DNA of 64,000 nt, from assembly GCA_003058495.1 (NCBI GenBank), contig QBVC01000011.1:62001-126000 (forward strand), in the 5' to 3' direction. The notes beneath the pieces were generated by a model that searched no databases, was not told where the DNA came from, and saw nothing but the letters and a program-made list of their open reading frames with translations. Position 1 is the first letter of the stretch. The number at the start of each line of letters is the position of its first letter. The DNA comes from a gamma proteobacterium symbiont of Ctena orbiculata. Its GTDB lineage: Bacteria > Pseudomonadota > Gammaproteobacteria > Chromatiales > Chromatiaceae. The position numbers and the translations under genes were made by a program. Below are positions 3,327 through 63,959 of this stretch, in pieces.

Positions 3327-3650
3327 ATGAATAAAATGAAAGTGATGCTGCTGGCTGCCAGCACGACCGTCGTGTCTCTGGGTGCAGTAGCAACTGCTAG
3401 CGCTGATCCCGTGGCACTTGCGACCCAACGCGGCTGCATGGCCTGCCACCAACTGGAGACCAAGGTGGTGGGACCCGCCTATAAAGAGGTCGCAGCGAAA
3501 TACAAGGGCCAGGAGGGCGCCGCCGAGATGTTGGCCGCCAAGGTCAAGGCCGGTGGATCCGGCGTCTGGGGTCCGGTGCCGATGCCGCCGAACGCCCATG
3601 TCAGTGACGAGGACATCAAGGTCATTGTCGACTGGCTGCTGACGCTCTGA
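3327..3650 (+). CDS. Monoheme class I cytochrome c (c551/c5-like)
   Basis: Small periplasmic electron carrier, 107 aa. A Sec signal peptide occupies residues 1-26 (cleavage after ASA). A single heme-binding site CMACH lies at residues 37-41, and Met86 in GPVPMPPN is the expected distal heme ligand. Length and motif order fit cytochrome c551/c5-type proteins that pass electrons to terminal oxidases or nitrite reductases. A GAGG ribosome-binding sequence precedes the ATG. A strong rho-independent terminator follows the stop codon, so the gene is monocistronic. The exact redox partner cannot be read from sequence. Confidence 0.9.
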   Translation: MNKMKVMLLAASTTVVSLGAVATASADPVALATQRGCMACHQLETKVVGPAYKEVAAKYKGQEGAAEMLAAKVKAGGSGVWGPVPMPPNAHVSDEDIKVIVDWLLTL

Positions 3651-5767: not shown

Positions 5768-5867
5768 TTTGCAGCTTTTTTGGGGCTTTCAGGATTGCCT
5801 GCCGTCTGGCGGGGACCGCAAGCCCGGGATTTCAACCTAGCAAGCAGATTTCAGACCAGGATTGATC

Positions 5868-6479
5868 ATGATTAAATGGCTCGTAACCATCACTATTGCC
5901 CTTAGCTTCGGACTCAGCCTGGCCCAGGCCGCCGGAAATCCGGAGGAAGGGAAGAAACAGTCTGCAATCTGCGCAGGTTGCCATGGCGCTGACGGAAACA
6001 GCCCGATCAATCCGCTCTGGCCCAAGATCGCGGGGCAGCATCCGCGATATATCGAGAAGCAGATCAAGGATTTCAAATCCGGCACCCGCACCGACCAGAT
6101 GATGGCGCCGATGGCGATGCCGCTCAACGATCAGCAGATCGCCGACCTGGCAGCCTACTACTCCGGCCAGCCGCGGCAGAGCGGCGAGGCCGCAGCCGAC
6201 ATGGTCGCGGCCGGTGAAGCCCTCTACCGGGGCGGCAATCCCGAGACCGGGGTGGTCGCCTGCATGGCCTGTCACGGTCCTGCCGGATCGGGGAATCCGC
6301 AAGCCAATTTCCCCGCCGTCGCCGGCCAGCACGCCGCCTATACTGAGAAGGCGCTGAAGGATTTCCGCGACGGCAACCGCACCAATGACAACGCCAAAAT
6401 GATGCAGGGTGTCGTCTCACGGATGACCAACGATGAGATGGCGGCGGTGGCCCAATACATACAAGGCCTTAGCAGATAA
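5868..6479 (+). CDS. Diheme cytochrome c4
   Basis: 203-aa periplasmic or membrane-anchored diheme cytochrome that carries electrons toward cytochrome oxidases such as cbb3. Signal sequence is residues 1-22 (cleavage near AQA|AG). The two heme sites are CAGCH (35-39) and CMACH (132-136), each opening one of two similar halves; Met-rich segments MMAPMAMPL (78-86) and NAKMMQGVVSRM supply candidate distal ligands. The ATG at 5868 follows CAGG by seven bases; a TTG six bases earlier is in frame. It has its own promoter and a strong terminator, so it is monocistronic. Confidence 0.95.
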   Translation: MIKWLVTITIALSFGLSLAQAAGNPEEGKKQSAICAGCHGADGNSPINPLWPKIAGQHPRYIEKQIKDFKSGTRTDQMMAPMAMPLNDQQIADLAAYYSGQPRQSGEAAADMVAAGEALYRGGNPETGVVACMACHGPAGSGNPQANFPAVAGQHAAYTEKALKDFRDGNRTNDNAKMMQGVVSRMTNDEMAAVAQYIQGLSR

Positions 6480-47479: not shown

Positions 47480-48043
47480 CTATTCCGGTTTGGCCTCTTT
47501 CGGGCTTGCCGCGCCCGGCAGCAGATTGAACTCACCCTCTTCGCTGAAGGGGAGGGTCAGCATGCTGTCCGGCGAGCTCAGGCTGCCGCTGATCCGGTAG
47601 TCGAAACTGCCGTCCGCTTGATCCTGGAGTGCGCTGAACTGCCTGATCAGTCCAAACACGGTGCTGCTCACTTTCACCTCCAGCATCGATTCGCTGAAAC
47701 CCGGGATGCTGGCCTTCTGGTTGCTTACCCCCGAGGCGAAACGCCTGCCGTTGAGATCCAGGTCGAAGCTCATGCCATCTATGTTCAACGCCTCCTTGGA
47801 TCGGTTTTGCAGTCGGATCTTGAGCAGATAGCGTTGCTCCATGAGGGTCGATTCCAGCGGACTCAGGTCGGCGATGGTCACCCTGATCCTCTCCTCCCGC
47901 GGTTGCAGGGAGGCGCAGCCGGAAAGAATCAGGAGAAGATAAAACAGCATGATTGTGCTGCTGAAGCCGATGTGGGATCGGCGAAGTGGTCGCCAATCGC
48001 CGTGGCCGGACTGTTTCATTTTGTCACTTGCAATAGCCATCAT
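47480..48043 (-). CDS. LEA type 2 (WHy-domain) family lipoprotein
   Basis: 187-aa predicted lipoprotein: a hydrophobic segment ends in the lipobox LILSGCAS, so the mature chain starts near Cys43. The rest fits the LEA14/WHy beta-sandwich family: RIRVTIADLSPLESTLMEQ, YLLKIRLQNRSKEALNIDGM, and VSSTVFGLIRQFSAL. Function in bacteria is unclear, possibly envelope stress. ATG 48043 follows AGGA; a second ATG at 47950 just before the signal segment is possible. The start overlaps the upstream small gene by four bases. Confidence 0.8.
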   Translation of the reverse strand: MMAIASDKMKQSGHGDWRPLRRSHIGFSSTIMLFYLLLILSGCASLQPREERIRVTIADLSPLESTLMEQRYLLKIRLQNRSKEALNIDGMSFDLDLNGRRFASGVSNQKASIPGFSESMLEVKVSSTVFGLIRQFSALQDQADGSFDYRISGSLSSPDSMLTLPFSEEGEFNLLPGAASPKEAKPE

Positions 48044-48273
48044 TGCGGATCCTGTTTGCCATGTTCAATCGTTGGTTGCTCTGCCCGGCTGCCTTTTTTC
48101 CAGGAACCGAACAACAGAGTCAGCAGCCCCAGCAGAATTTCATCCGCAAATGGGACCAGGTCGGGTATCAGCAGATCGACGACGAAGAGTGCGGCGGTCA
48201 CCAGAAACAGCTGACGGAATTTCAAGCGGTCAGCATATTTCAACAGGGCTGTGATTATGGGCAGTCGGGTCAT
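48040..48273 (-). CDS. Small two-segment membrane protein
   Basis: 77-aa protein with a probable membrane hairpin: LFLVTAALFVVDLLI and ILLGLLTLLFGSWKK, separated by a short PDLVPFADE loop. It resembles a widespread small family of uncharacterised proteobacterial membrane proteins (DUF6116-like, recalled from memory with low certainty). Its stop overlaps the start of the LEA-like lipoprotein gene by four bases (ATGA), so the two are coupled. Confidence 0.7.
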   Translation of the reverse strand: MTRLPIITALLKYADRLKFRQLFLVTAALFVVDLLIPDLVPFADEILLGLLTLLFGSWKKGSRAEQPTIEHGKQDPQ

Positions 48274-49056
48274 CTCTATCGGGTTTAATATCTCGCGTAT
48301 CGACGATTCCGTTAATAGTCGCTGAAACGGTCTCTGCCAGTCCAGCTCAGGGTGTTAAATATTGTCACTCGATCTGGTCGGCAGTAGGGTCACCCCGGTC
48401 TTTATCCCCTTGAAATGTGGGTTATTGCTTATATATGAAAGTAGGGTTAGTACCCATAATAAACATGTAAATGATAGGGTAATGTTACTGTGAATTATTT
48501 CAAAAAGTTACAACGATATGCAAAACAAGCAGTTGAAGTCGACTGATGGTGGCGCTCAACGAGGAACCTTCAGTGTCTTCACTACGGAATAAGGATGGGG
48601 TGAAAAGGGGGCTTACAGACGCATCGCTCGGTATAACAGGACTTAAGGGGTGTCTTGCGGCGCTGAGTGTCTATCCGTTGGATTGAATCCAGGATACATT
48701 CAAGGTCTCAAGGCAGACTGTTTTACAAGCGGCTCTGTAGGTCACATCGAATATAACAATAACTGTTGTCATCTATTGGGCAATATTTTCTGTACGACCG
48801 GACTATGTAACGCAGTCTGCCGGTCACGCTCGATTGTTCCCATTCGCTTCTGCGTTTTTGGACCGATCACCCTCTCCTTTATTTCCCGGATGCAGCCGAC
48901 AGGTGACTCTGATTTCCACCCGGCATCCGGAACTATGGGGGTCGTTAACGGTTTTATTTACGATGTTCGATGGCCCTCGGGCTGTCGTTTTCGGATTGAC
49001 CGCAAAGCAGTAAACGACGACTGAGTTGGGTAACACTTCACTATCTGGAGGAGCGT
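48274..49056. other. Long upstream region of the cytochrome-porin operon
   Basis: 783 bases between divergent genes. It includes an AT-rich part (48420-48530), the palindrome GGGTTAGTACCC near 48446, and a TACCCAT word reminiscent of a NarL half-site. No family features are seen in its short frames. GGAGGAGCGT just before 49057 is the ribosome-binding site of the cytochrome-porin gene. The length suggests regulated expression or a lost gene. Confidence 0.5.
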
Positions 49057-50298
49057 ATGAACAGAAAACTCACGATGTTGCATAGCTATGCAATGGGGAT
49101 GCTTCTATTGATCGGGAGTTCGCTGCTTCCACAACAGGCAAGCGCAGTTCCGGCATTTGCGCGACAGACAGGCATGCCTTGTACCGCCTGCCACTTTCAA
49201 CACTTTCCCGCCCTCAACTCGTTTGGCAGATCGTTCAGGTCAGGCGGTTATACGCTGACCGGCGGTCAAGGTATGATCGAGGGCGATGATATCTCCCTGC
49301 CGTTGATGCTGAATGCCTCGGTGATCACCAAGCTGCGTTATGTGAAGTCGAATGGCAACACCAATACCGGCAGCGACTACGGCGTCATCGAGTGGCCCGA
49401 CGAAGCGGCCCTTCTGGTCGGCGGCAAGTTGGCGAAGGACGCCGGTTTTCTCATGGAACTGGGCTTGACCGACGCCAACTCCTTCCTCTCCACCAAGGTC
49501 CATTTCAATCTTGGCAAGGCGGGCAATACCCAATTCAGCGCCATACCCTTCTCCACCGATGGCCTGGGATCGGCATACGGGTTTGAGTTGTTGAACACCG
49601 GGGCGCAACGCTCGCAACGCCCCATAGAGGAGCGGAGGGGATTCAGTGCCGCCCAGGCATTGGGCCTGGGCAGCGGCGAGGCCACCGGTATCGCCCTGGT
49701 CGCATCGAGTCACAACTTCTTCATCAACTACACCCCCTGGGTGCCGGGTTGGGAAGAGCATAACGTCGAGGTAAAACCTTCCGGGCTGGCTCACTATCTA
49801 CGTGCCGCCTACATGCCCTTCATCGGTTCCTGGGACAGCGGTTTCGGTTTTCAGCTCTGGTCGGGTGATGCGGAAGTGGCGGATGGCGCCGGTGGCGAGA
49901 GAGTGATTGCAACCGATGGCTGGGTCATCGACGGTCAGCTGCAAGGGAACCTGGGGAGCCTGCCCCTGGGTCTCTACGCCAGTTACGGGAGCTGCTCCGC
50001 CGACGAATCCCACTTTCTCATAGGCTGCACCAACAGCGATGACGGTGAGGCGTTCGGTATCCTCGCCCAGCTGGGCGTATTGCCCAATAAGGCCAACATA
50101 TTCGCTGCCTATCGCTCACTTGATGATGGCTCGGATGAGGATTCGGAGTTCAACGCAACGACGATTGGCGCAAACTACCTCTTCTCGCAGAATATCCGTT
50201 TTGAACTCTACTATGTGAAAGAGAGCGGAGACGGGGTGGATGCCCGCAGTGATGAGCGTGACGGCAAATGGCTGTTCCAGCTCTTTGCCGGTTATTGA
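49057..50298 (+). CDS. Cyc2-like fused cytochrome c-porin
   Basis: 413-aa exported protein: signal peptide to residue 30 (QASA|VP), a short heme domain, then a beta-barrel. The opening VPAFARQTGMPCTACHF (heme CxxCH, residues 42-46) and FPALNSFGRSFRSGGYTL match the N-terminus of Cyc2, the outer-membrane cytochrome-porin that takes electrons from extracellular Fe(II) in iron oxidisers. The rest shows alternating strands (AALLVGGKLAKDAGFLMELG, GFGFQLWSGDAEVAD), and ends LFQLFAGY with a terminal aromatic, as in porins. GGAGGAG precedes the ATG. A diheme cytochrome c gene follows. Alternative: another fused cytochrome-porin clade with different donor. Confidence 0.8.
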   Translation: MNRKLTMLHSYAMGMLLLIGSSLLPQQASAVPAFARQTGMPCTACHFQHFPALNSFGRSFRSGGYTLTGGQGMIEGDDISLPLMLNASVITKLRYVKSNGNTNTGSDYGVIEWPDEAALLVGGKLAKDAGFLMELGLTDANSFLSTKVHFNLGKAGNTQFSAIPFSTDGLGSAYGFELLNTGAQRSQRPIEERRGFSAAQALGLGSGEATGIALVASSHNFFINYTPWVPGWEEHNVEVKPSGLAHYLRAAYMPFIGSWDSGFGFQLWSGDAEVADGAGGERVIATDGWVIDGQLQGNLGSLPLGLYASYGSCSADESHFLIGCTNSDDGEAFGILAQLGVLPNKANIFAAYRSLDDGSDEDSEFNATTIGANYLFSQNIRFELYYVKESGDGVDARSDERDGKWLFQLFAGY

Positions 50299-50392
50299 TG
50301 GGTGACTTGCGCCCTATCGATGAATAACGAACCGACACTGGAGTCGTTTCGGCTGCAAGAACGCAGTACCTGATACAAGTGAGGATTTACTC

Positions 50393-51052
50393 ATGAATAG
50401 AATTGTAACTAGAGTGGTTAAGTTCGCCGCGTTGCTGAGCCTGTTGGGATTGATATCGCTCTCCGCTCATGCCGGCACCTATGAGGGATATACCCTGTTC
50501 AATCAATCCTGTTTTCTCTGCCATGGCACAGATGGCAAGGGTAACGGACCCTTGGCGAAGAAACTGGATGTGGCGCCTGCCGACCTGACCAATGGAAACG
50601 GCAGTGCGGCGGAGAGCACCGACCAGCGACTGTTCGGTCTGATTCAGGGCACCGTCAGGCACGGCGCGGGAACCAGCGCCATGCCGCAGTGGGGCTTGGC
50701 CATGCCGGGAAATCAGATCAAGTCCCTGGTCTCCTATATCCGGTTCCTGCAAAGGTCGAAGCACAGCCTGCCGGGGGATCCTGAGATCGGAAAAAGCATC
50801 TACGAGGATAACTGCGCCGCCTGTCACGGCCGCTCCGGAAAAGGGGACGGGCCCTTGGCGGAAGTGCTGGGTTTGAAACCAAAGGACCATACCGACAGTG
50901 GTGAGATGAACAAGCACCCCAACTCTCAATTTATCCAGGTTGTGAGCCATGGAACACCCGGCAAATCGATGATGCCTGGCTGGAAGGACGTGCTCAGCCA
51001 GGAGGAGATCGAAGGCGTGGTCAGCTATATGCGGTTGCTGTCGAACTACTAG
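50393..51052 (+). CDS. Periplasmic diheme cytochrome c
   Basis: 219-aa secreted cytochrome with two class I heme domains: CFLCH at 40-44 and CAACH at 141-145. Each is followed by GKGNGPLA or GKGDGPLA and by a Met-containing loop (AMPQWGLAM; SMMPGWKDVL). Signal peptide to about residue 27. GAGGA precedes the ATG. Placed 94 bases after the cytochrome-porin gene and sharing its direction, it is the natural periplasmic electron acceptor or donor for it, analogous to Cyc1 in Acidithiobacillus (an inference). The operon ends at a strong hairpin. Confidence 0.92.
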   Translation: MNRIVTRVVKFAALLSLLGLISLSAHAGTYEGYTLFNQSCFLCHGTDGKGNGPLAKKLDVAPADLTNGNGSAAESTDQRLFGLIQGTVRHGAGTSAMPQWGLAMPGNQIKSLVSYIRFLQRSKHSLPGDPEIGKSIYEDNCAACHGRSGKGDGPLAEVLGLKPKDHTDSGEMNKHPNSQFIQVVSHGTPGKSMMPGWKDVLSQEEIEGVVSYMRLLSNY

Positions 51053-51071
51053 CTAGAGAAAAGCTCTGTTT

Positions 51072-51097
51072 GAGCCGCCGCCATCCGGCGGCGGCTC
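51072..51097. terminator. Bidirectional hairpin between convergent genes
   Basis: GAGCCGCCGCC (51072-51082), four-base loop, GGCGGCGGCTC (51087-51097): a perfect 11-bp stem between the diheme cytochrome gene and the convergent PEGA/SHOCT lipoprotein gene. No long T tract. Confidence 0.7.
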
Positions 51098-51105
51098 TTA
51101 TCCCC

Positions 51106-51753
51106 TCAAAGTTCATCAAGAATTCTCTTTCTTGCCTGTCGATACTCTTCCTCGGAGATCATACCTTCCCGCTTCAGCCCGTCGATGCGCAGCAGTCGTT
51201 GTTTGATCGTCAATCCCGCCGATTGCCTGTCCGCAACCTCTCCCGCTTTCCCGTGGATCGGCGGAGCGGTTGAAGCGGGAGGAGTTGTGACTTCGGATAT
51301 GTTCTCCCTATCCCTGTTTTCGGAGACGCCAGGCGGTTCCTCATTCGACTGAGCCGACGAGGGTGTGGGTTTTACGGGAGTATCGGATGGCAACTCAGAA
51401 ACGGTGGCGGTATCTTCACAATTAAGTTCAACTGACAGTCTCGAGCTGAAATCCTTATAGTGGATCCGTTTGGTGAGATCCTCGCAGCCCTCTTTTCTGA
51501 ATGAGAGAGACCCGTACATCCGATGCTTGCCTGCATCGTATCCAGCCGGGTAGAGCTGCTGTTGAGAGATGGTAACAGGCGTTTCGCCGATCGCCTTATC
51601 CAATAGATAGATCGTGGCGCCGGGTGGATCGGACTCGACTTTTAGCGGCATGTCCCCCGAAACAGCGCCTATCCCGCTACAGGCCTGCAACACTATCAGA
51701 GATGCTGCCAGGCCCGATAGCTGTAGGATTCCTGGTAATCGATGCTTGCCCAT
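51106..51753 (-). CDS. PEGA-like lipoprotein with C-terminal SHOCT-like motif
   Basis: 215-aa probable lipoprotein: lipobox VLQACSG near residue 25. The PEGA-like segment VESDPPGATIYLLDKAIGET follows. A proline/serine-rich linker covers about 115-175. The C-terminus IKQRLLRIDGLKREGMISEE resembles the SHOCT motif found at the ends of many oligomerising proteins. AAGGCGC precedes the ATG. Function unknown; PEGA domains are linked to the cell surface. Confidence 0.75.
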   Translation of the reverse strand: MGKHRLPGILQLSGLAASLIVLQACSGIGAVSGDMPLKVESDPPGATIYLLDKAIGETPVTISQQQLYPAGYDAGKHRMYGSLSFRKEGCEDLTKRIHYKDFSSRLSVELNCEDTATVSELPSDTPVKPTPSSAQSNEEPPGVSENRDRENISEVTTPPASTAPPIHGKAGEVADRQSAGLTIKQRLLRIDGLKREGMISEEEYRQARKRILDEL

Positions 51754-52196
51754 GCGCCTTCCCCGCTGTCTGTTTTTACCTCTCTAGCAGCACTATAAAA
51801 CATGCCATAGGAAAAGACATCCATGGTTCGGATTGCTCCCCCTGCCAGGGCCGGACAGGGCGCTTGGCGATGCGGGGACGGAGCCAATAAGCAGGCATAG
51901 CCTTAATGTTTAATTAAACCTTAACTAACTGATCACATTTACTATTTCTTGATTGGCCATTTAAGTCTTGGTTAAGAATGGGGTGCTAGTTTTTAATTAA
52001 AAAGATGAGACCACCCTGCAGAAGAAGGCCAGCGGTTCCGTCGAGGTTTAGGCAGAGACAAACCCTGGCCGTCAGCCTAATGGACTGAGTCAGTATTCAA
52101 TAACGAGCAGGCGAGGCAGTAAGCACTGTTTTCTGGCAGAAACGGAATTGAATCGATATGAATCGTGCTGAGTCTGAGGGACTCTGGAGGTTTGAA
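51754..52196. other. Intergenic region upstream of secreted hypothetical gene
   Basis: 443 bases between divergent genes. A strongly AT-rich block at 51905-52000 contains TTTAATTAAA and TTTTTAATTAAAAA words and is probably promoter sequence. No gene or RNA recognised. Confidence 0.5.
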
Positions 52197-52670
52197 ATGA
52201 AGATTAAACGACTGTTCATCGCCTCTTCTTTAGTGGCGTTGACACTGGCCGTACTGCCGTTTTCGGCTGCGGCGGGAGAGACCACAGGTTCTTCCACCGC
52301 TGTTACGATGCCCGCCAGCCTTGACGACACCCTGGTCATCGTGGACAAGATATTGGGCGTCGATGCCACAGGTAAGCAACGGATCCTCTATGACGAGGAG
52401 CATGGACGCGTCTATCGTCTGCAGAACATCGAGCAGGCGATTCACGACATGAGTGCGCGGGGAATTGTCTCCAAAGGGAGCTATCGTTCCCTAAGGGCGG
52501 TGTTGAACGAGACCGTCTATTTGATTGGCAAGAATGAGACTCCCTATCCCGCGCGGCGCGCGGATACTCCGATTCCCGAGATCGTTCCGCTTGCGGTGGA
52601 AAACCTGCGGGTCACCAAAGACAGGGTCATCGCGATATACACAACCAATTGCGATAACAGCGCTATTTAG
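52197..52670 (+). CDS. Secreted hypothetical protein
   Basis: 157-aa protein with a clear signal peptide (MKIKRLFIASSLVALTLAVL, cleavage near AAAGE, residue 27). Mature part is about 130 residues: a threonine/serine-rich start, then DDTLVIVDKILGVDATGKQR and YRLQNIEQAIHDMSARGIVS. One Cys lies near the C-terminus. No family recognised. ATG 52197 has GGAGGT six bases upstream, which decides against the upstream in-frame ATG 52158. A perfect hairpin after the stop ends the transcript. Confidence 0.65.
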   Translation: MKIKRLFIASSLVALTLAVLPFSAAAGETTGSSTAVTMPASLDDTLVIVDKILGVDATGKQRILYDEEHGRVYRLQNIEQAIHDMSARGIVSKGSYRSLRAVLNETVYLIGKNETPYPARRADTPIPEIVPLAVENLRVTKDRVIAIYTTNCDNSAI

Positions 52671-52687
52671 TATTCCAGCCGCCCTCC

Positions 52688-52719
52688 CTGACAGATTCGC
52701 CCAAAGGCGAATCTGTCAG
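52688..52719. terminator. Perfect 14-bp hairpin between convergent genes
   Basis: CTGACAGATTCGCC (52688-52701), loop CAAA, GGCGAATCTGTCAG (52706-52719). Lies between the secreted hypothetical and the convergent hemerythrin gene; probably a bidirectional terminator, with only a short T run downstream. Confidence 0.75.
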
Positions 52720-52766
52720 TGCAGAGGGTTTTAGACAAAATCGCACCGTTACTCTGGTTTGCGATG

Positions 52767-53246
52767 CTAGACTGGCTGTACCTGAACATCAGTCATATCG
52801 TCCAGGTCGACCTCATCCTCTGACTGCGATTGGCGCTTGAGAAAGTCGGCAAACAATCTGTCGCTGTAGACTACATGGTCGATCTGCCAGTGCTTGAGGG
52901 CGGTCAGGGTCGCCAGGGTGAACGGCTTGTTCTCTGTTTCGATGTCCCGCAGAAACTCCTGCAATTCCGCCAACAACATGACATGCTCCCGGTGATGCTC
53001 CGCCAGCCTGGGATAGTCCTTGGCCCGCATCAATGCTTCCTCGGCTTTAAAGTGGCGTCGAGCGATGTCGACCAGGGTGGAAAGCTGCTGACATATTTGG
53101 TTCCTGTCACGGTTATGCCTCGTATCCTCGCGGGTCACGAAGCGGTGCAGTCGGTTTATGATATCGACGAGTTCCCTATGCTGCTCGTCCAGGCCTTCAA
53201 GTCCGAGTCGCCAATCGTCTCGCCAGAGTAAAAAAGGTTTTTTCAT
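52767..53246 (-). CDS. Bacteriohemerythrin
   Basis: 159-aa single-domain hemerythrin with all di-iron ligands: His23, His65 and Glu69 (HFKAEE), His84 and His88 (EHHREH), His124 and Asp129 (DHVVYSD). The beginning LLWRDDWRLGLEGLDEQH closely parallels the other hemerythrin (25726-26166), so they are paralogues. The C-terminus ends in an acidic tail (SEDEVDLDD). ATG 53246 follows GGAGATCACA; a start four codons upstream is possible. Probable O2 binding or delivery. Confidence 0.93.
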   Translation of the reverse strand: MKKPFLLWRDDWRLGLEGLDEQHRELVDIINRLHRFVTREDTRHNRDRNQICQQLSTLVDIARRHFKAEEALMRAKDYPRLAEHHREHVMLLAELQEFLRDIETENKPFTLATLTALKHWQIDHVVYSDRLFADFLKRQSQSEDEVDLDDMTDVQVQPV

Positions 53247-53790
53247 TGTGATCTCCATATCATGGTACTGCTCGTATGGGATTCGTTTTCAGACCGTTGA
53301 CCATCGATTACCCGCCGGCACTTCCGCGGATGGGGCAGCGATCTACAACTTTTTTAGTCTGATTTTTTAATTTTGTTTTGCTAAAGCCCTATTAACCTAG
53401 CATGCGTATGGTAATTTTGTACACTGAAATTCCGAAAAAATGATCGGGTTCGCAGTTTACTTCAGCGACCGGCAGGCCAATTTATTGAACATTATTATCG
53501 AAAATGGCTCGTCGTCCCAAAATCGATAGGGATTCAGATTCCTTTGTGAAATGTTGATTAAGCGGGGATGACAATTCTATTTCCCGGCTGGTCGCCTGCT
53601 TGGTCGCGGCGGGATGTCGGATCAGGGTCCGGATAGGCGTTCGTGCGGTTGGGGGTAAACAGCGTGGGTGCACGAATGGCTGTAACATGTCCAGCTTAGA
53701 ATGGAACCAGGTATCCCTGGTAAACGGAGAGACGCACCGCTCTGTCAGGGATAGAGCGCCGCAATAGAGTCGGATTCAAGGAGAGAACAG
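53247..53790. other. Intergenic region with structured leader
   Basis: 544 bases. An AT-rich middle separates the divergent hemerythrin promoter from a GC-rich leader. Close to the plus-strand gene two hairpins are visible: CCAGG/CCTGG (53709-53722) and CGCTCT/AGAGCG (about 53738-53758). No known riboswitch core was matched. AAGGAGA just before 53791 is the ribosome-binding site. Confidence 0.45.
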
Positions 53791-55092
53791 ATGCGGATCC
53801 ATGCTGCCATCATCATTCTAATTGCTACCTTACCCTCGCTTGGTCATGCCCTTGACGGCTGGGATAGGGATCTGCGTGACGGTCTGCTGGTATATAGACC
53901 GGAGTCACTGGACGACGGCAAGACATTTCTCTATCGGGCGGTTCCACCGGAGTCCTTGTCCGGACGAAACCTCCACCAATGGTTTTCTGCAAAGATTGCA
54001 GCCATGCAGGATCAGTTGGGAGAGCCATTGGAGAGTTGGAAAATAAAAGCGGAGAAAAATGACCATTTAGGTGCGGCCAACAGCTATATTGCGCCGAGTG
54101 GCGAGAAGTTCAGTGTCGGTTATTACGCCGGGTATCTGAATGATGATCAGGCCTATATCATTCAGATGATCTCAAACCAGGATATCTGGTTGGTGCTGCG
54201 TTATGGATTTGCGCTCGACAAGGTCGCCGCGGATGTCAGAGAAAACCTGCCTAATCTTAGCCAAAGCCCTCCTGCCTTGACTCATCCGGCAACAGGAGAT
54301 CGCCCGCAGAAAAGCGCTGACAGGGAAAAGGGCCCGACGAAAACGGCGAACAAGCCGGCCGGTAGGGATTTGCTGGCGCAGATAAGGACCGCGCCCGGTG
54401 ACGGCGTGAAGGACGAGCTGGAAACGGTATGGGTAAAAACCAAAATCAACGTGATGCGTGGCAAACTTGAACCGACAACCTATTTTCTGTTTGCAGATGG
54501 CACAGCGTACATCGACGCGCGTACGCCTCCGGCGGATTTCAATGCGGCGACTTCCAAACGCCTCGAGGGGAGGGGAAAGTGGGGACAATGGCGCAAGCGT
54601 GGCGGTAAATATCAGGTGAAGCGCCCCAAGGTAGGCAGGTGGGAGGATATCAAGGGCAACAGGGCCGTGCCCGGTAAGCGCGGCGAGAGGATCGACAACA
54701 AGTTTATCAACGCCAGCGGCAGTGCAAACTTCGGCTCCCATAAATCATCGGTCAGGTTGATGTCGAATGGTCGTTTCGAATTGTCCCACAGCAGTCTGAT
54801 GGGTGGCGGCGGCATCATCGATATCGCTCCCAAGGTCCTGGCCAGCGGGCAGAGCGACAAGACCGGGACCCGTACCACCCTTACCACCATGGGTAGCAAG
54901 ATCGGTGGCGGCAGCAGCACCAGCAACAGGGATGGGGCAAATAATACCGGCACCTACGAGATCGATGGCTACACCATAGAGATGCACCATGACAACGGCC
55001 TCGTTCACAGGGAGCTCTTTCTCTTCGAGGACGAGAGAAAGAACAGGATTGTGATCGGTGATACGGTCTATTGGGTGGATATGGACGGCTAG
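53791..55092 (+). CDS. Secreted hypothetical protein, 433 aa
   Basis: Signal peptide to about residue 20 (SLGHA|LDG). Two parts are visible: an N-terminal domain (25-130, GWDRDLRDGLLVYRP and YAGYLNDDQAYIIQM) and a C-terminal beta-rich domain (190-430) with repeated GKW/GRW elements, FLFADGTAYIDARTP, RLMSNGRFELSHSSLMGGGG, GTYEIDGYTIEMHHDNG and LFLFEDERKN, the pattern of a lipocalin-like or DUF-type barrel that measures a model 'display' of a stress protein. A proline/lysine linker joins them. I do not recognise a family or function. Monocistronic; strong AAGGAGA ribosome-binding site. Confidence 0.65.
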   Translation: MRIHAAIIILIATLPSLGHALDGWDRDLRDGLLVYRPESLDDGKTFLYRAVPPESLSGRNLHQWFSAKIAAMQDQLGEPLESWKIKAEKNDHLGAANSYIAPSGEKFSVGYYAGYLNDDQAYIIQMISNQDIWLVLRYGFALDKVAADVRENLPNLSQSPPALTHPATGDRPQKSADREKGPTKTANKPAGRDLLAQIRTAPGDGVKDELETVWVKTKINVMRGKLEPTTYFLFADGTAYIDARTPPADFNAATSKRLEGRGKWGQWRKRGGKYQVKRPKVGRWEDIKGNRAVPGKRGERIDNKFINASGSANFGSHKSSVRLMSNGRFELSHSSLMGGGGIIDIAPKVLASGQSDKTGTRTTLTTMGSKIGGGSSTSNRDGANNTGTYEIDGYTIEMHHDNGLVHRELFLFEDERKNRIVIGDTVYWVDMDG

Positions 55093-61637: not shown

Positions 61638-63959
61638 TTAATAGAAGTTGTAGCGCAGCCCTGCCCAGATCGCCCGCGGCGATCCGGGTGAGAGGAAGCG
61701 GGGATTTTCATAATCGTCCCCCAGTACCTCGTCGGCCTCGCCATAGAGGCCGAAGGTCTCGTACTCCTTGTCGAACAGGTTATCCACCTTGGCGAACAGT
61801 TTGAGCTTGTCAGTGGCCTGGTATTCACCCCGCAGGTTGACCAGGGTGTAGCCGTCGATCTCATCATCGAGGTTGGCCTCGTCACCGCGCAACACGATAT
61901 CGGAACTGTATTGGAGATCGGCGCCTAGGGAGATGTTCGAGGTCACCCGGTAGGTCGCTCCTGCCTTGAGCAGGTTTTCCGGCAGTCCGGGGAGGCGGTC
62001 CCCGGAACTCACCGCGATCTCGCCATCCACCGCGAAGGGATTGTTGGGACTGGCGATGTTCAGATTCTCCTCGAAGGTGGCCTTGAGGCGGGTGTAACTG
62101 AGGAACCAGTCGAGGCGGTTGTCGGCCAGCCTGCCGTTAAGCGTGAGTTCCAGGCCCTGGCGTCGGGTCTCACCCACGTTGTCGAAGAAGCCCTCGTTGG
62201 TCAGCGCGCCGGCGCTGATGAAGAGGATGTCATCCTCATTGGTGGTCTGGAACAGACCCAGGTGCCAGTTCATTCCGGGCAGCGAACCTCTCAGGCCGGC
62301 TTCCCAGGTCTTTGCCACCACCTGCTCCAGGGGCGGATCGGAGAGGAAGGCGTTGGGCAACCGGCAGGGATCCTCCGGATCGGCGCAGGTCAGTTCCATG
62401 GCGGTGGGGGCGCGATTCGATTCGCTGTAGCCGGCATAGAGGTTGACTCCCTGGTTCAGGTCGTAGGCGAGTCCTACGGCCGGGTTGAAGCGGGTGAAGC
62501 TGTGATCACCGTTCAGTGCCGTGCCCAACTGATCGCGCAGTTCTATCTCTGTCTTGTTCCAGCGACCCGAGAGGGTCAGCGCCAGCTGTTCGCTTACAGA
62601 CCAGGTGTCGGTGAAGTAGAAGGAGAGGTTCTTGGTCTCGGTCTCCACCTCGGTGAAACTCTCCTCGACGAAGATGCCGCTGCCGATCGCCTGACGGCTA
62701 TCGTCGAGGCTGCCTAGTTCCGTGTCGGAGGAGAAATCCACCTCGCTGCGATCCGCCGCCACACCGACGATCAGTTGGTTGTCCCGACCACCGAGGGGTT
62801 GCAAAAAGGCTGTCTGCAGACTCAGGCCGAAGGTATCCTGATCGCTCTTCGAGCGGTTCACGGTGCCACCCTCCACATCGTCATCCGCAACGATGGGATT
62901 GCCATTCTGGTCTAAGACAACCTCTTCCTCTTCTCCTTCCTCTCCCCCCTCCTCTTCTTCACAGATGAAGCCTTCGTTTTCGGCCTCTTCACACTCTTCA
63001 AAGTCGGAGTCATCGCCGTTGAGTGTGTCGATCTGGCTGTTGCGGAAATAGATCGCACCCTCCAGCACGATCTCGTCACCCAGTTCACGCTGACCGCCAA
63101 GGCGCAGTAGCGTCGCCTCCTGTTCGGTGATGTCGGGGCGGGTGAAGATCGCTTCACGATCCTCCTCCAGCAGATCCTCAGGCAAGGCGCCGTTACCAAT
63201 CAGTTCGTTGTCGCTGAGGCTAAGGGTCAGGTCGAGGGAGCCTGCTTCACCCTGCCAGGCCAGACTTCCGAACAGCTGCTTGGATTCTGATGGTGAGTAG
63301 TCGCGCCAGCCATCCTCGTCGAAATAGTTGCCGGTAAAGAAGTAACCCAGGTTATCTTTTTGCCCACCGATACTGGCCTGGGCGGTGTAGCGGTCGAAGG
63401 AGCCGCCCGAGACCTCCACCTCGGCGCCGGGGTGGGTAAAGCCGTTCTTGGTCTGCACCGAAAGGGCGCCGCCCAGGGTGTTGAGTCCGAACAGGGGATT
63501 GGAGCCCGCCATCAGGTTGATCCCGGCAATGGCCGATTCGGGTATCACCGACCAGTTGACGGTATCGCCGAAGGGCTCGTTGATGCGCACTCCGTCCATG
63601 TAGACCGACATGCCCTGGGGCAGGCCGATCAGGGGCGAGGCGACAAAGCCCCGATAGAGCAGATCGGGTTGCAGGGGGTTGTTCTGCGCCTCATTGAGAA
63701 AGACGCTGCCGAAGCGCTGGTTGAGAAACTCCGAGAGATCGAGACTCTGCTGCCTTCGGATATCTTCATCGGTGGCGATCTCGGTGTGCATCGGCAGCCG
63801 GTTGCGTTCGATCTCGACCCCGTGCAGCGGCGTGGTGCTGATGACATCGATGGATGGCAGGCGCTCTTCCGCCAACCCCGTCCCGGAGCCCGACAGGACG
63901 AGGCCGGCGGAGAACAGCAACCGCATAGGTTTTAATTGTTGTTGTGAAACTGCAGGCAT
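61638..63959 (-). CDS. TonB-dependent outer-membrane receptor with acidic insertion
   Basis: 773-aa outer-membrane receptor. Signal peptide to about residue 30; plug domain with IDVISTTPLHGVEIER, LLYRGFVASPLIGLPQGMSVY (split across the conserved plug loop) and NLMAGSNPLFGLNTLGGALS; barrel strands to the end, terminal LRYNFY. A loop near residues 317-360 is extremely acidic (long Glu runs with two cysteines and LDQNGNPIVADDD after them), unlike the rest. It lies 262 bases upstream of exbB on the same strand. The ligand is unknown; the loop suggests a metal cation or a cationic compound. Adjacent TonB-ExbBD probably serves it. Confidence 0.9.
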   Translation of the reverse strand: MPAVSQQQLKPMRLLFSAGLVLSGSGTGLAEERLPSIDVISTTPLHGVEIERNRLPMHTEIATDEDIRRQQSLDLSEFLNQRFGSVFLNEAQNNPLQPDLLYRGFVASPLIGLPQGMSVYMDGVRINEPFGDTVNWSVIPESAIAGINLMAGSNPLFGLNTLGGALSVQTKNGFTHPGAEVEVSGGSFDRYTAQASIGGQKDNLGYFFTGNYFDEDGWRDYSPSESKQLFGSLAWQGEAGSLDLTLSLSDNELIGNGALPEDLLEEDREAIFTRPDITEQEATLLRLGGQRELGDEIVLEGAIYFRNSQIDTLNGDDSDFEECEEAENEGFICEEEEGGEEGEEEEVVLDQNGNPIVADDDVEGGTVNRSKSDQDTFGLSLQTAFLQPLGGRDNQLIVGVAADRSEVDFSSDTELGSLDDSRQAIGSGIFVEESFTEVETETKNLSFYFTDTWSVSEQLALTLSGRWNKTEIELRDQLGTALNGDHSFTRFNPAVGLAYDLNQGVNLYAGYSESNRAPTAMELTCADPEDPCRLPNAFLSDPPLEQVVAKTWEAGLRGSLPGMNWHLGLFQTTNEDDILFISAGALTNEGFFDNVGETRRQGLELTLNGRLADNRLDWFLSYTRLKATFEENLNIASPNNPFAVDGEIAVSSGDRLPGLPENLLKAGATYRVTSNISLGADLQYSSDIVLRGDEANLDDEIDGYTLVNLRGEYQATDKLKLFAKVDNLFDKEYETFGLYGEADEVLGDDYENPRFLSPGSPRAIWAGLRYNFY

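Follow-up and report, generated by a model that had tools for sequence, protein, structure and literature searches.

What might a porin that carries a heme do in the symbiont of a lucinid clam? The question is raised by a stretch of 64,000 nucleotides (positions 62,001 to 126,000 of contig QBVC01000011.1, assembly GCA_003058495.1; hereafter the window) from a gammaproteobacterial symbiont of Ctena orbiculata, whose genome is that of a 'Candidatus Thiodiazotropha', the lucinid clam symbionts. On the + strand of the window, the open reading frame (ORF) 49057-50298 is uninterrupted from its ATG through its stop codon and encodes a Cyc2, a fused monoheme cytochrome-porin of 413 amino acids, and a gene for a two-heme cytochrome c follows. 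The original prediction took these genes for a conduit that would draw electrons from Fe(II), solid minerals or a partner cell, and called this not standard for the group. What it had observed was borne out, and its interpretation held in part: the range of donors was too broad and the claim of unusualness too strong. The reading favored here, with moderate confidence, is that a Cluster 1-type Cyc2 oxidizes dissolved Fe2+ and passes the electrons to the adjacent two-heme cytochrome and then to oxidases.

Is the protein truly a Cyc2? In iron-oxidizing bacteria, Cyc2 draws its electrons from dissolved iron. Keffer et al. (PMC8406198) define the family by the motif AXPXFAR[Q/K][T/Y] ahead of CXXCH, PXL four residues further on, a length of at least 365 residues, and a 16-strand porin. 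Every sequence feature of this definition is found in the window ORF, whose residues 30-53 read AVPAFARQT-GMP-CTACH-FQHF-PAL. The first motif (residues 30-38; 49144-49170) is followed by the heme c attachment site CTACH (residues 42-46; 49180-49194), the only CXXCH of the ORF, and by PAL (residues 51-53; 49207-49215). A search of named genomes yielded 349 confirmed relatives, and the best 80 were fetched as loci L057-L136. In the alignment of the window protein with 76 of these 80 (L061, L118, L124, and L131 were left out), C42, C45, and H46 are invariant across all 77 sequences. The N terminus (residues 1-30; 49057-49146) resembles by eye a signal peptide ending in ASA (residues 28-30), and residues 3-22 form a helix in the AlphaFold2 model. 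A likely ribosome-binding site, GGAGGAG, lies at 49047-49053. Pfam and NCBIfam returned no Cyc2 family, and the window protein gave only a Porin_4 match below the cut-off and a weaker Porin_O_P match. Porin_4 was matched in 27 of the 77 relatives (E 0.01).

The barrel expected by the original prediction was obtained. In the AlphaFold2 model (predicted local distance difference test, pLDDT, 83.9; predicted template modeling score, pTM, 0.81), residues 87-412 (49315-50292) form a beta-barrel with 16 strands of at least eight residues. A Cyc2 of Sideroxydans, folded as a control from 51 of the 77 rows with one of the two adjacent Cyc2 ORFs of L130, likewise has 16 strands. The best solved structural matches to the window model were porins, OprP/OprO first (VIA-align), so that the model resembles a 16-strand porin of the OprO/OprP kind. 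The 77-row profile had zero matches among solved structures at E 1. An outer-membrane location can thus be predicted from the modeled fold. Motif, length, predicted barrel, and tree placement (see below) agree, and the identity as Cyc2 is well supported.

What accompanies cyc2? After a gap of 94 bases, a gene on the same strand (50393-51052) encodes a two-domain cytochrome c of 219 amino acids that matches Pfam Cytochrome_CBB3 in two stretches. Its heme sites are CFLCH (50510-50524; C40, C43, and H44) and CAACH (50813-50827; C141, C144, and H145), and two alignments, of 24 and of 12 sequences, show no variation at these six residues. It is a periplasmic-type protein, as had been foreseen, and a likely periplasmic electron acceptor. 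A homologue lies directly downstream of cyc2 in the window and in 23 of the 25 gammaproteobacterial loci L057-L081, those of tubeworm symbionts included, and the same gene order was found in two further genomes (G466 and G504). Symbionts of Riftia are not represented among the 80 loci, which does not show that the pair is absent from them. None of the remaining 55 loci (L082-L136) has such a homologue directly downstream, and in 50 of the 55 the sequence there runs to 900 bases or more. One of the 55 (L103) has it 0.9 kb upstream of cyc2, and six (L098, L099, L116, L126, L135, and L136) have weaker profile matches elsewhere. Two betaproteobacterial loci (L114 and L116) have two-heme ORFs of 213 and 218 amino acids 102 and 86 bases downstream of cyc2. 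Since the profile of the window cytochrome gives no match to them at E 1e-3, they were not counted as the same pair. At E 1e-20, 19 of 116 genomes of the bacterial family have a member of the two-heme family, and some of these lack a Cyc2 match.

Is Cyc2 common in the genus, and is it maintained? The window's genome (4.53 Mb in 51 contigs) is estimated to be 99.12% complete with 0.27% contamination. A Cyc2 homologue was found in 18 of 21 other genomes of the same genus, 16 of them with an uninterrupted gene, so the trait is not unusual within the genus, and lucinid symbionts with Cyc2 have been reported (PMC12442345). In the same draw, none of 13 other genomes of the family has Cyc2. In a larger draw of the family, it was found in 12 of 116 genomes and seven of 61 genera; three of the 12 are short partial matches, and the 12 include the window's own genome and three of its genus. 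Among the best 80 of the 349 relatives, the nearest are from Ctena orbiculata symbionts (92 and 90% identity) and a Stewartia symbiont (76%). The records named Candidatus Thiodiazotropha range from 76 to 90%, with two at 70-71% over the best segment.

The ratio of nonsynonymous to synonymous substitutions (dN/dS) of cyc2 against four Thiodiazotropha copies is 0.02-0.05 by NG86 and 0.05-0.07 by YN00 (three computable), with dS of 0.8-2.6. The ratio could not be computed for L062 by one method and for the tubeworm copy L072 by both. The two-heme gene has ratios of 0.10-0.16 (NG86) and 0.13-0.21 (YN00) against Thiodiazotropha copies. Hence, cyc2 is under purifying selection. Since there are homologues in 18 of the 21 genomes, low dN/dS, and 349 confirmed relatives, the ORF is not a product of chance. 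A profile search of the window's genome at E 0.1 found the window Cyc2 only. A weak match (L002; E 0.18) lies antisense to an FtsZ-like ORF and was rejected as a chance match. Upstream of cyc2, conservation among six aligned species is limited to about the last 70 bases. Two FNR-like patterns had zero matches in 17 regions scanned upstream of cyc2. A promoter and terminator scan gave counts inside the range of shuffled sequences and no hit between cyc2 and the two-heme gene.

Where does the window protein belong among Cyc2 proteins? A Cyc2 match was found in 88 of 398 sampled genomes of the phylum. Leaving aside the window's own, 29 of the top 30 matches are from a single family, f58, and the best one (G416; 36%) is from another family. 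The f58 genomes are about 1-3 Mb in size, and several have a second, Cluster 3-like Cyc2. Since two Cyc2 types are described in Zetaproteobacteria (McAllister et al., PMC7029218), I infer that f58 belongs there. Among the best 80 of the 349, identity to the window protein is 68-70% for symbionts of Lamellibrachia and Escarpia, 44-62% for other gammaproteobacterial metagenome-assembled genomes (MAGs), 37-45% for MAGs of Deltaproteobacteria and Nitrospirae, and 34-37% for Gallionellaceae and Gallionellales.

Two trees were made, and the cluster labels were set by motifs and the first tree, without reference sequences. In the first one, with 130 rows (nine of 131 loci gave no row, and seven second copies were included), the window protein falls in a clade of 110 rows with support of 99, together with most f58 rows and Gallionellaceae. 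The tubeworm symbionts form the next branch beside the Thiodiazotropha Cyc2. In the second one, a mixture-model tree of 51 rows selected from the 130, the 35 rows labeled Cluster 1-type group together (99/95), and the Cluster 2-like and 3-like proteins fall outside the window's clade. A caution about this tree is that its Cluster 2-like and 3-like branches are long and join each other. Both trees thus place the protein with those of Gallionellaceae and presumed Zetaproteobacteria, as Cluster 1-type. None of the outcomes that would speak against the original prediction (a missing barrel, a clade of demonstrated unrelated function, or a periplasmic location) turned up, the outer membrane being predicted by the fold only.

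How does the locus compare with known systems? With Cyc2PV-1 of Mariprofundus ferrooxydans and the Cluster 1 proteins of Gallionellaceae (PMC8406198), the window protein shares AXPXFAR[Q/K][T/Y], one CXXCH, and PXL, as well as the 16-strand porin (predicted here) and the Cluster 1-type placement, and its N terminus looks by eye like their signal peptide. It differs from the Gallionellaceae and Gallionellales proteins in being only about 34-37% identical, in its sulfur-oxidizer host, and in the adjacent two-heme gene. The rus operon of Acidithiobacillus (PMC10654088) likewise has an outer-membrane monoheme cytochrome-porin, Cyc2, followed by the gene of a periplasmic cytochrome, Cyc1. However, Cluster 2-like proteins fall outside the window's clade, and the window partner has two stretches that match Pfam Cytochrome_CBB3. 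No cox, cup, or rus-type gene was found among the neighbors scanned (47480-55092), so that the adjacent cytochrome oxidase and rusticyanin genes of a rus-type operon are missing there. Of the seven ORFs in that region, only cyc2 and the two-heme gene encode redox proteins; the others are LEA_2, DUF6116, and PEGA proteins and two without a family. The MtoAB, PioAB, and MtrAB systems share electron transfer through an outer-membrane barrel, but they combine a 26-strand barrel with a ten-heme cytochrome (PMC8406198), whereas the window protein has 16 predicted strands and one heme. The best match of the window's genome to TIGR03509 scores 21.2 bits against a cut-off of 240.05, which gives no sign of an Mto/Pio/Mtr route.

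If the pair oxidizes iron, the following steps may be envisaged. Cyc2 would be a 16-strand porin of the outer membrane, and the one heme c of its short N-terminal cytochrome would lie near the periplasmic mouth. Dissolved Fe2+ would enter the pore and give one electron to the heme, which would pass it to the two-heme cytochrome encoded alongside. From there, the electrons might flow to cytochrome oxidases, or uphill via bc1 and complex I for CO2 fixation. Ca. T. endoloripes has aa3 and cbb3 oxidases (Petersen et al. 2016, PMC6872982). Fe2+ would supplement sulfide and thiosulfate as an auxiliary donor. DsrA was found above its curated cut-off twice in the window's genome (C8:100801-102003, 605 bits; C34:58928-60130, 554 bits), in line with sulfur oxidation. 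Each of these genes has a second, weaker match alongside. Growth on Fe2+ is known for sulfur oxidizers that have a Cluster 2 cyc2, with Sulfuriferula as the example (PMC12285272).

Several points weigh against iron oxidation by this pair. Fe(II) as the substrate is suggested by kinship only, and Keffer et al. advise that Cyc2 function be judged by closeness to characterized proteins (PMC8406198). The window protein is distant from those of iron oxidizers, and at about 36% identity to the Sideroxydans protein, a transfer of function may be called reasonable but not safe. The trees contain no characterized Cyc2PV-1 sequence, the wider node of the 130-row tree, where three divergent f58 rows join, is supported at only 49, and f58 is only presumed to be zetaproteobacterial. 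The heme segment of the model is of low confidence (pLDDT below 50 for residues 21-41, 43-48, and 50-53), and the model contains no heme. The two-heme gene is not adjacent at L075 and L080, where 1.3 and 1.8 kb of sequence are available, nor at L096, a further gammaproteobacterial locus. Three of the 21 species of the genus (G006, G015, and G018) lack cyc2, and two have an interrupted copy. Free Fe2+ is scarce in sulfide-rich habitats. Functional tests of any Cyc2 of the lucinid and tubeworm clade are not known, and iron oxidation has not been demonstrated in lucinid symbionts, according to Tamre and Fournier 2025 (PMC12442345). In a mangrove study, cyc2 transcripts, assigned only to Gammaproteobacteria, were very low, which makes a large role there doubtful (PMC12400630). 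The available portions of the literature searched hold no expression evidence for the window cyc2; for Ca. T. endolucinida, a porin and a cytochrome c without a name are reported to be strongly expressed, but neither could be tied to the window gene (PMC13137333).

Could the protein, though a true Cyc2 by origin, now work with a different dissolved donor (for instance sulfide or polysulfide, Mn(II), or small redox-active organics) and hand the electrons to the two-heme cytochrome? The nearest named hosts are symbionts known as sulfur oxidizers, DsrA is present in the genome, and additional Cyc2 functions are allowed by Keffer et al. (PMC8406198). Moreover, among the best 80 of the 349 loci, the cyc2/two-heme pair was seen only in the gammaproteobacterial group, which may mark a changed role. 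On the other hand, the heme motif resembles that of Gallionellaceae, and these bacteria have dedicated enzymes for sulfide (PMC13137333). I therefore regard another donor as the less likely case, though one to be taken seriously. That the electrons flow outward, with Cyc2 passing them to Fe(III) or other acceptors outside the cell to keep redox balance, is improbable. The direction of flow is not fixed by sequence, and in some relatives a paralogue of the two-heme cytochrome is accompanied by an 11-heme cytochrome, in one of them also by an OmcE-like cytochrome, so that other surface electron transfer may exist in the group. But the 11-heme protein has no match in the window's genome at E 1e-10 (nor in G021 and G006), and those Cyc2 proteins that have been characterized act as oxidases (PMC8406198).

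Solid minerals or a partner cell as donors, which the original prediction had also allowed, fare still worse. In favor of a conduit for direct uptake from minerals, electrodes, or partner cells is the predicted fold, which would make Cyc2 an outer-membrane cytochrome, but the protein has a single heme at the porin N terminus rather than a multiheme chain. Because of this one heme, direct uptake is very unlikely; no MtrB/PioB was found above the cut-off in the genome, and the case made by Keffer et al. 2021 is for Cyc2 acting on Fe2+ in solution (PMC8406198). Is the gene perhaps a relic without present function, or the stretch misassembled or contaminant? The absent and interrupted copies within the genus would fit a relic. 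The dN/dS of 0.02-0.07, the 16 uninterrupted copies, the length of the contig (at least 126 kb), and the completeness and low contamination of the genome largely refute this least probable of the explanations. As for the interrupted copies themselves, G012 (L061) has one internal stop and G001 (L017/L026) a split frame, from either decay or draft-assembly error.

Which part of this is new? Tamre and Fournier 2025 reported Cyc2 orthologues in lucinid symbionts including Ca. Thiodiazotropha and used them for clock calibration (PMC12442345), so the presence of Cyc2 in the genus, the core of the finding, is already known. Their Cyc2 is from the same genus and protein family, and since the window's genome shows a single Cyc2, the window protein very likely belongs to their orthologue group. 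The present analysis adds the conserved two-heme partner gene, the structure model, and the tubeworm orthologues. The main text of that paper does not contain the terms operon, neighborhood, synteny, diheme, or tubeworm, and neither the two-heme pairing nor tubeworm Cyc2 orthologues were met in the available portions of the literature searched.

It can be put forward, as a tentative idea, that the symbionts of lucinid clams and of Lamellibrachia/Escarpia-type tubeworms are facultative iron oxidizers by means of a shared, strongly selected Cyc2 and a dedicated two-heme cytochrome. They might use dissolved sediment Fe(II), for example from FeS, when sulfide is scarce, either free-living or in the host. 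If the pair does oxidize iron, the textbook sulfur-oxidizing symbionts of clams and tubeworms would gain a second inorganic energy source, and this would matter for how iron and sulfur are coupled in seagrass and seep sediments. Tests of a Cluster 1-type Cyc2 could also make use of the conserved pair as a defined couple of donor and acceptor; for the step after Cyc2, Zetaproteobacteria have several candidate periplasmic cytochromes (PMC7029218). In addition, the calibration of the 2025 Cyc2 clock presupposes that the group occurs in lucinids only (PMC12442345). Thiodiazotropha transcripts are also reported from mangrove sediment (PMC12400630), and these, together with the tubeworm-symbiont branch, bear on that premise. 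So does Chromatiales bacterium MAG.232 (L063), which is not titled a symbiont and sits inside the Thiodiazotropha Cyc2 clade.

The window has two further cytochromes, as the original prediction had noted, one with one heme (3327-3650) and the other with two (5862-6479). Relatives, G010 and G532 among them, have an 11-heme cytochrome with a paralogue of the two-heme protein close by. The cluster of G010 (contig C7; L184:7206-15534) holds, besides the paralogue and the 11-heme cytochrome, an OmcE-like tetraheme cytochrome, two triheme c7 proteins, a 681-residue protein without a Pfam family, and an NHL protein. The tetraheme protein has a phmmer match (E 3.6e-34) to 7tfs, presumably OmcE. The 11-heme protein was matched in seven of ten genomes searched, two of the genus g250 among them. 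By association, two-heme paralogues beside surface cytochromes would fit a role as carriers between these and the periplasm. A second Cyc2-like ORF or fragment lies near the first at L107, L117, L123, L126, L127, L130, L134, and L136, several of them from Gallionellaceae, in which tandem duplication of cyc2 may be common. At L131 ('Proteobacteria bacterium'), an ORF of 445 amino acids with six CXXCH lies about 3.3 kb upstream of cyc2, with two small one-heme ORFs nearer to it.
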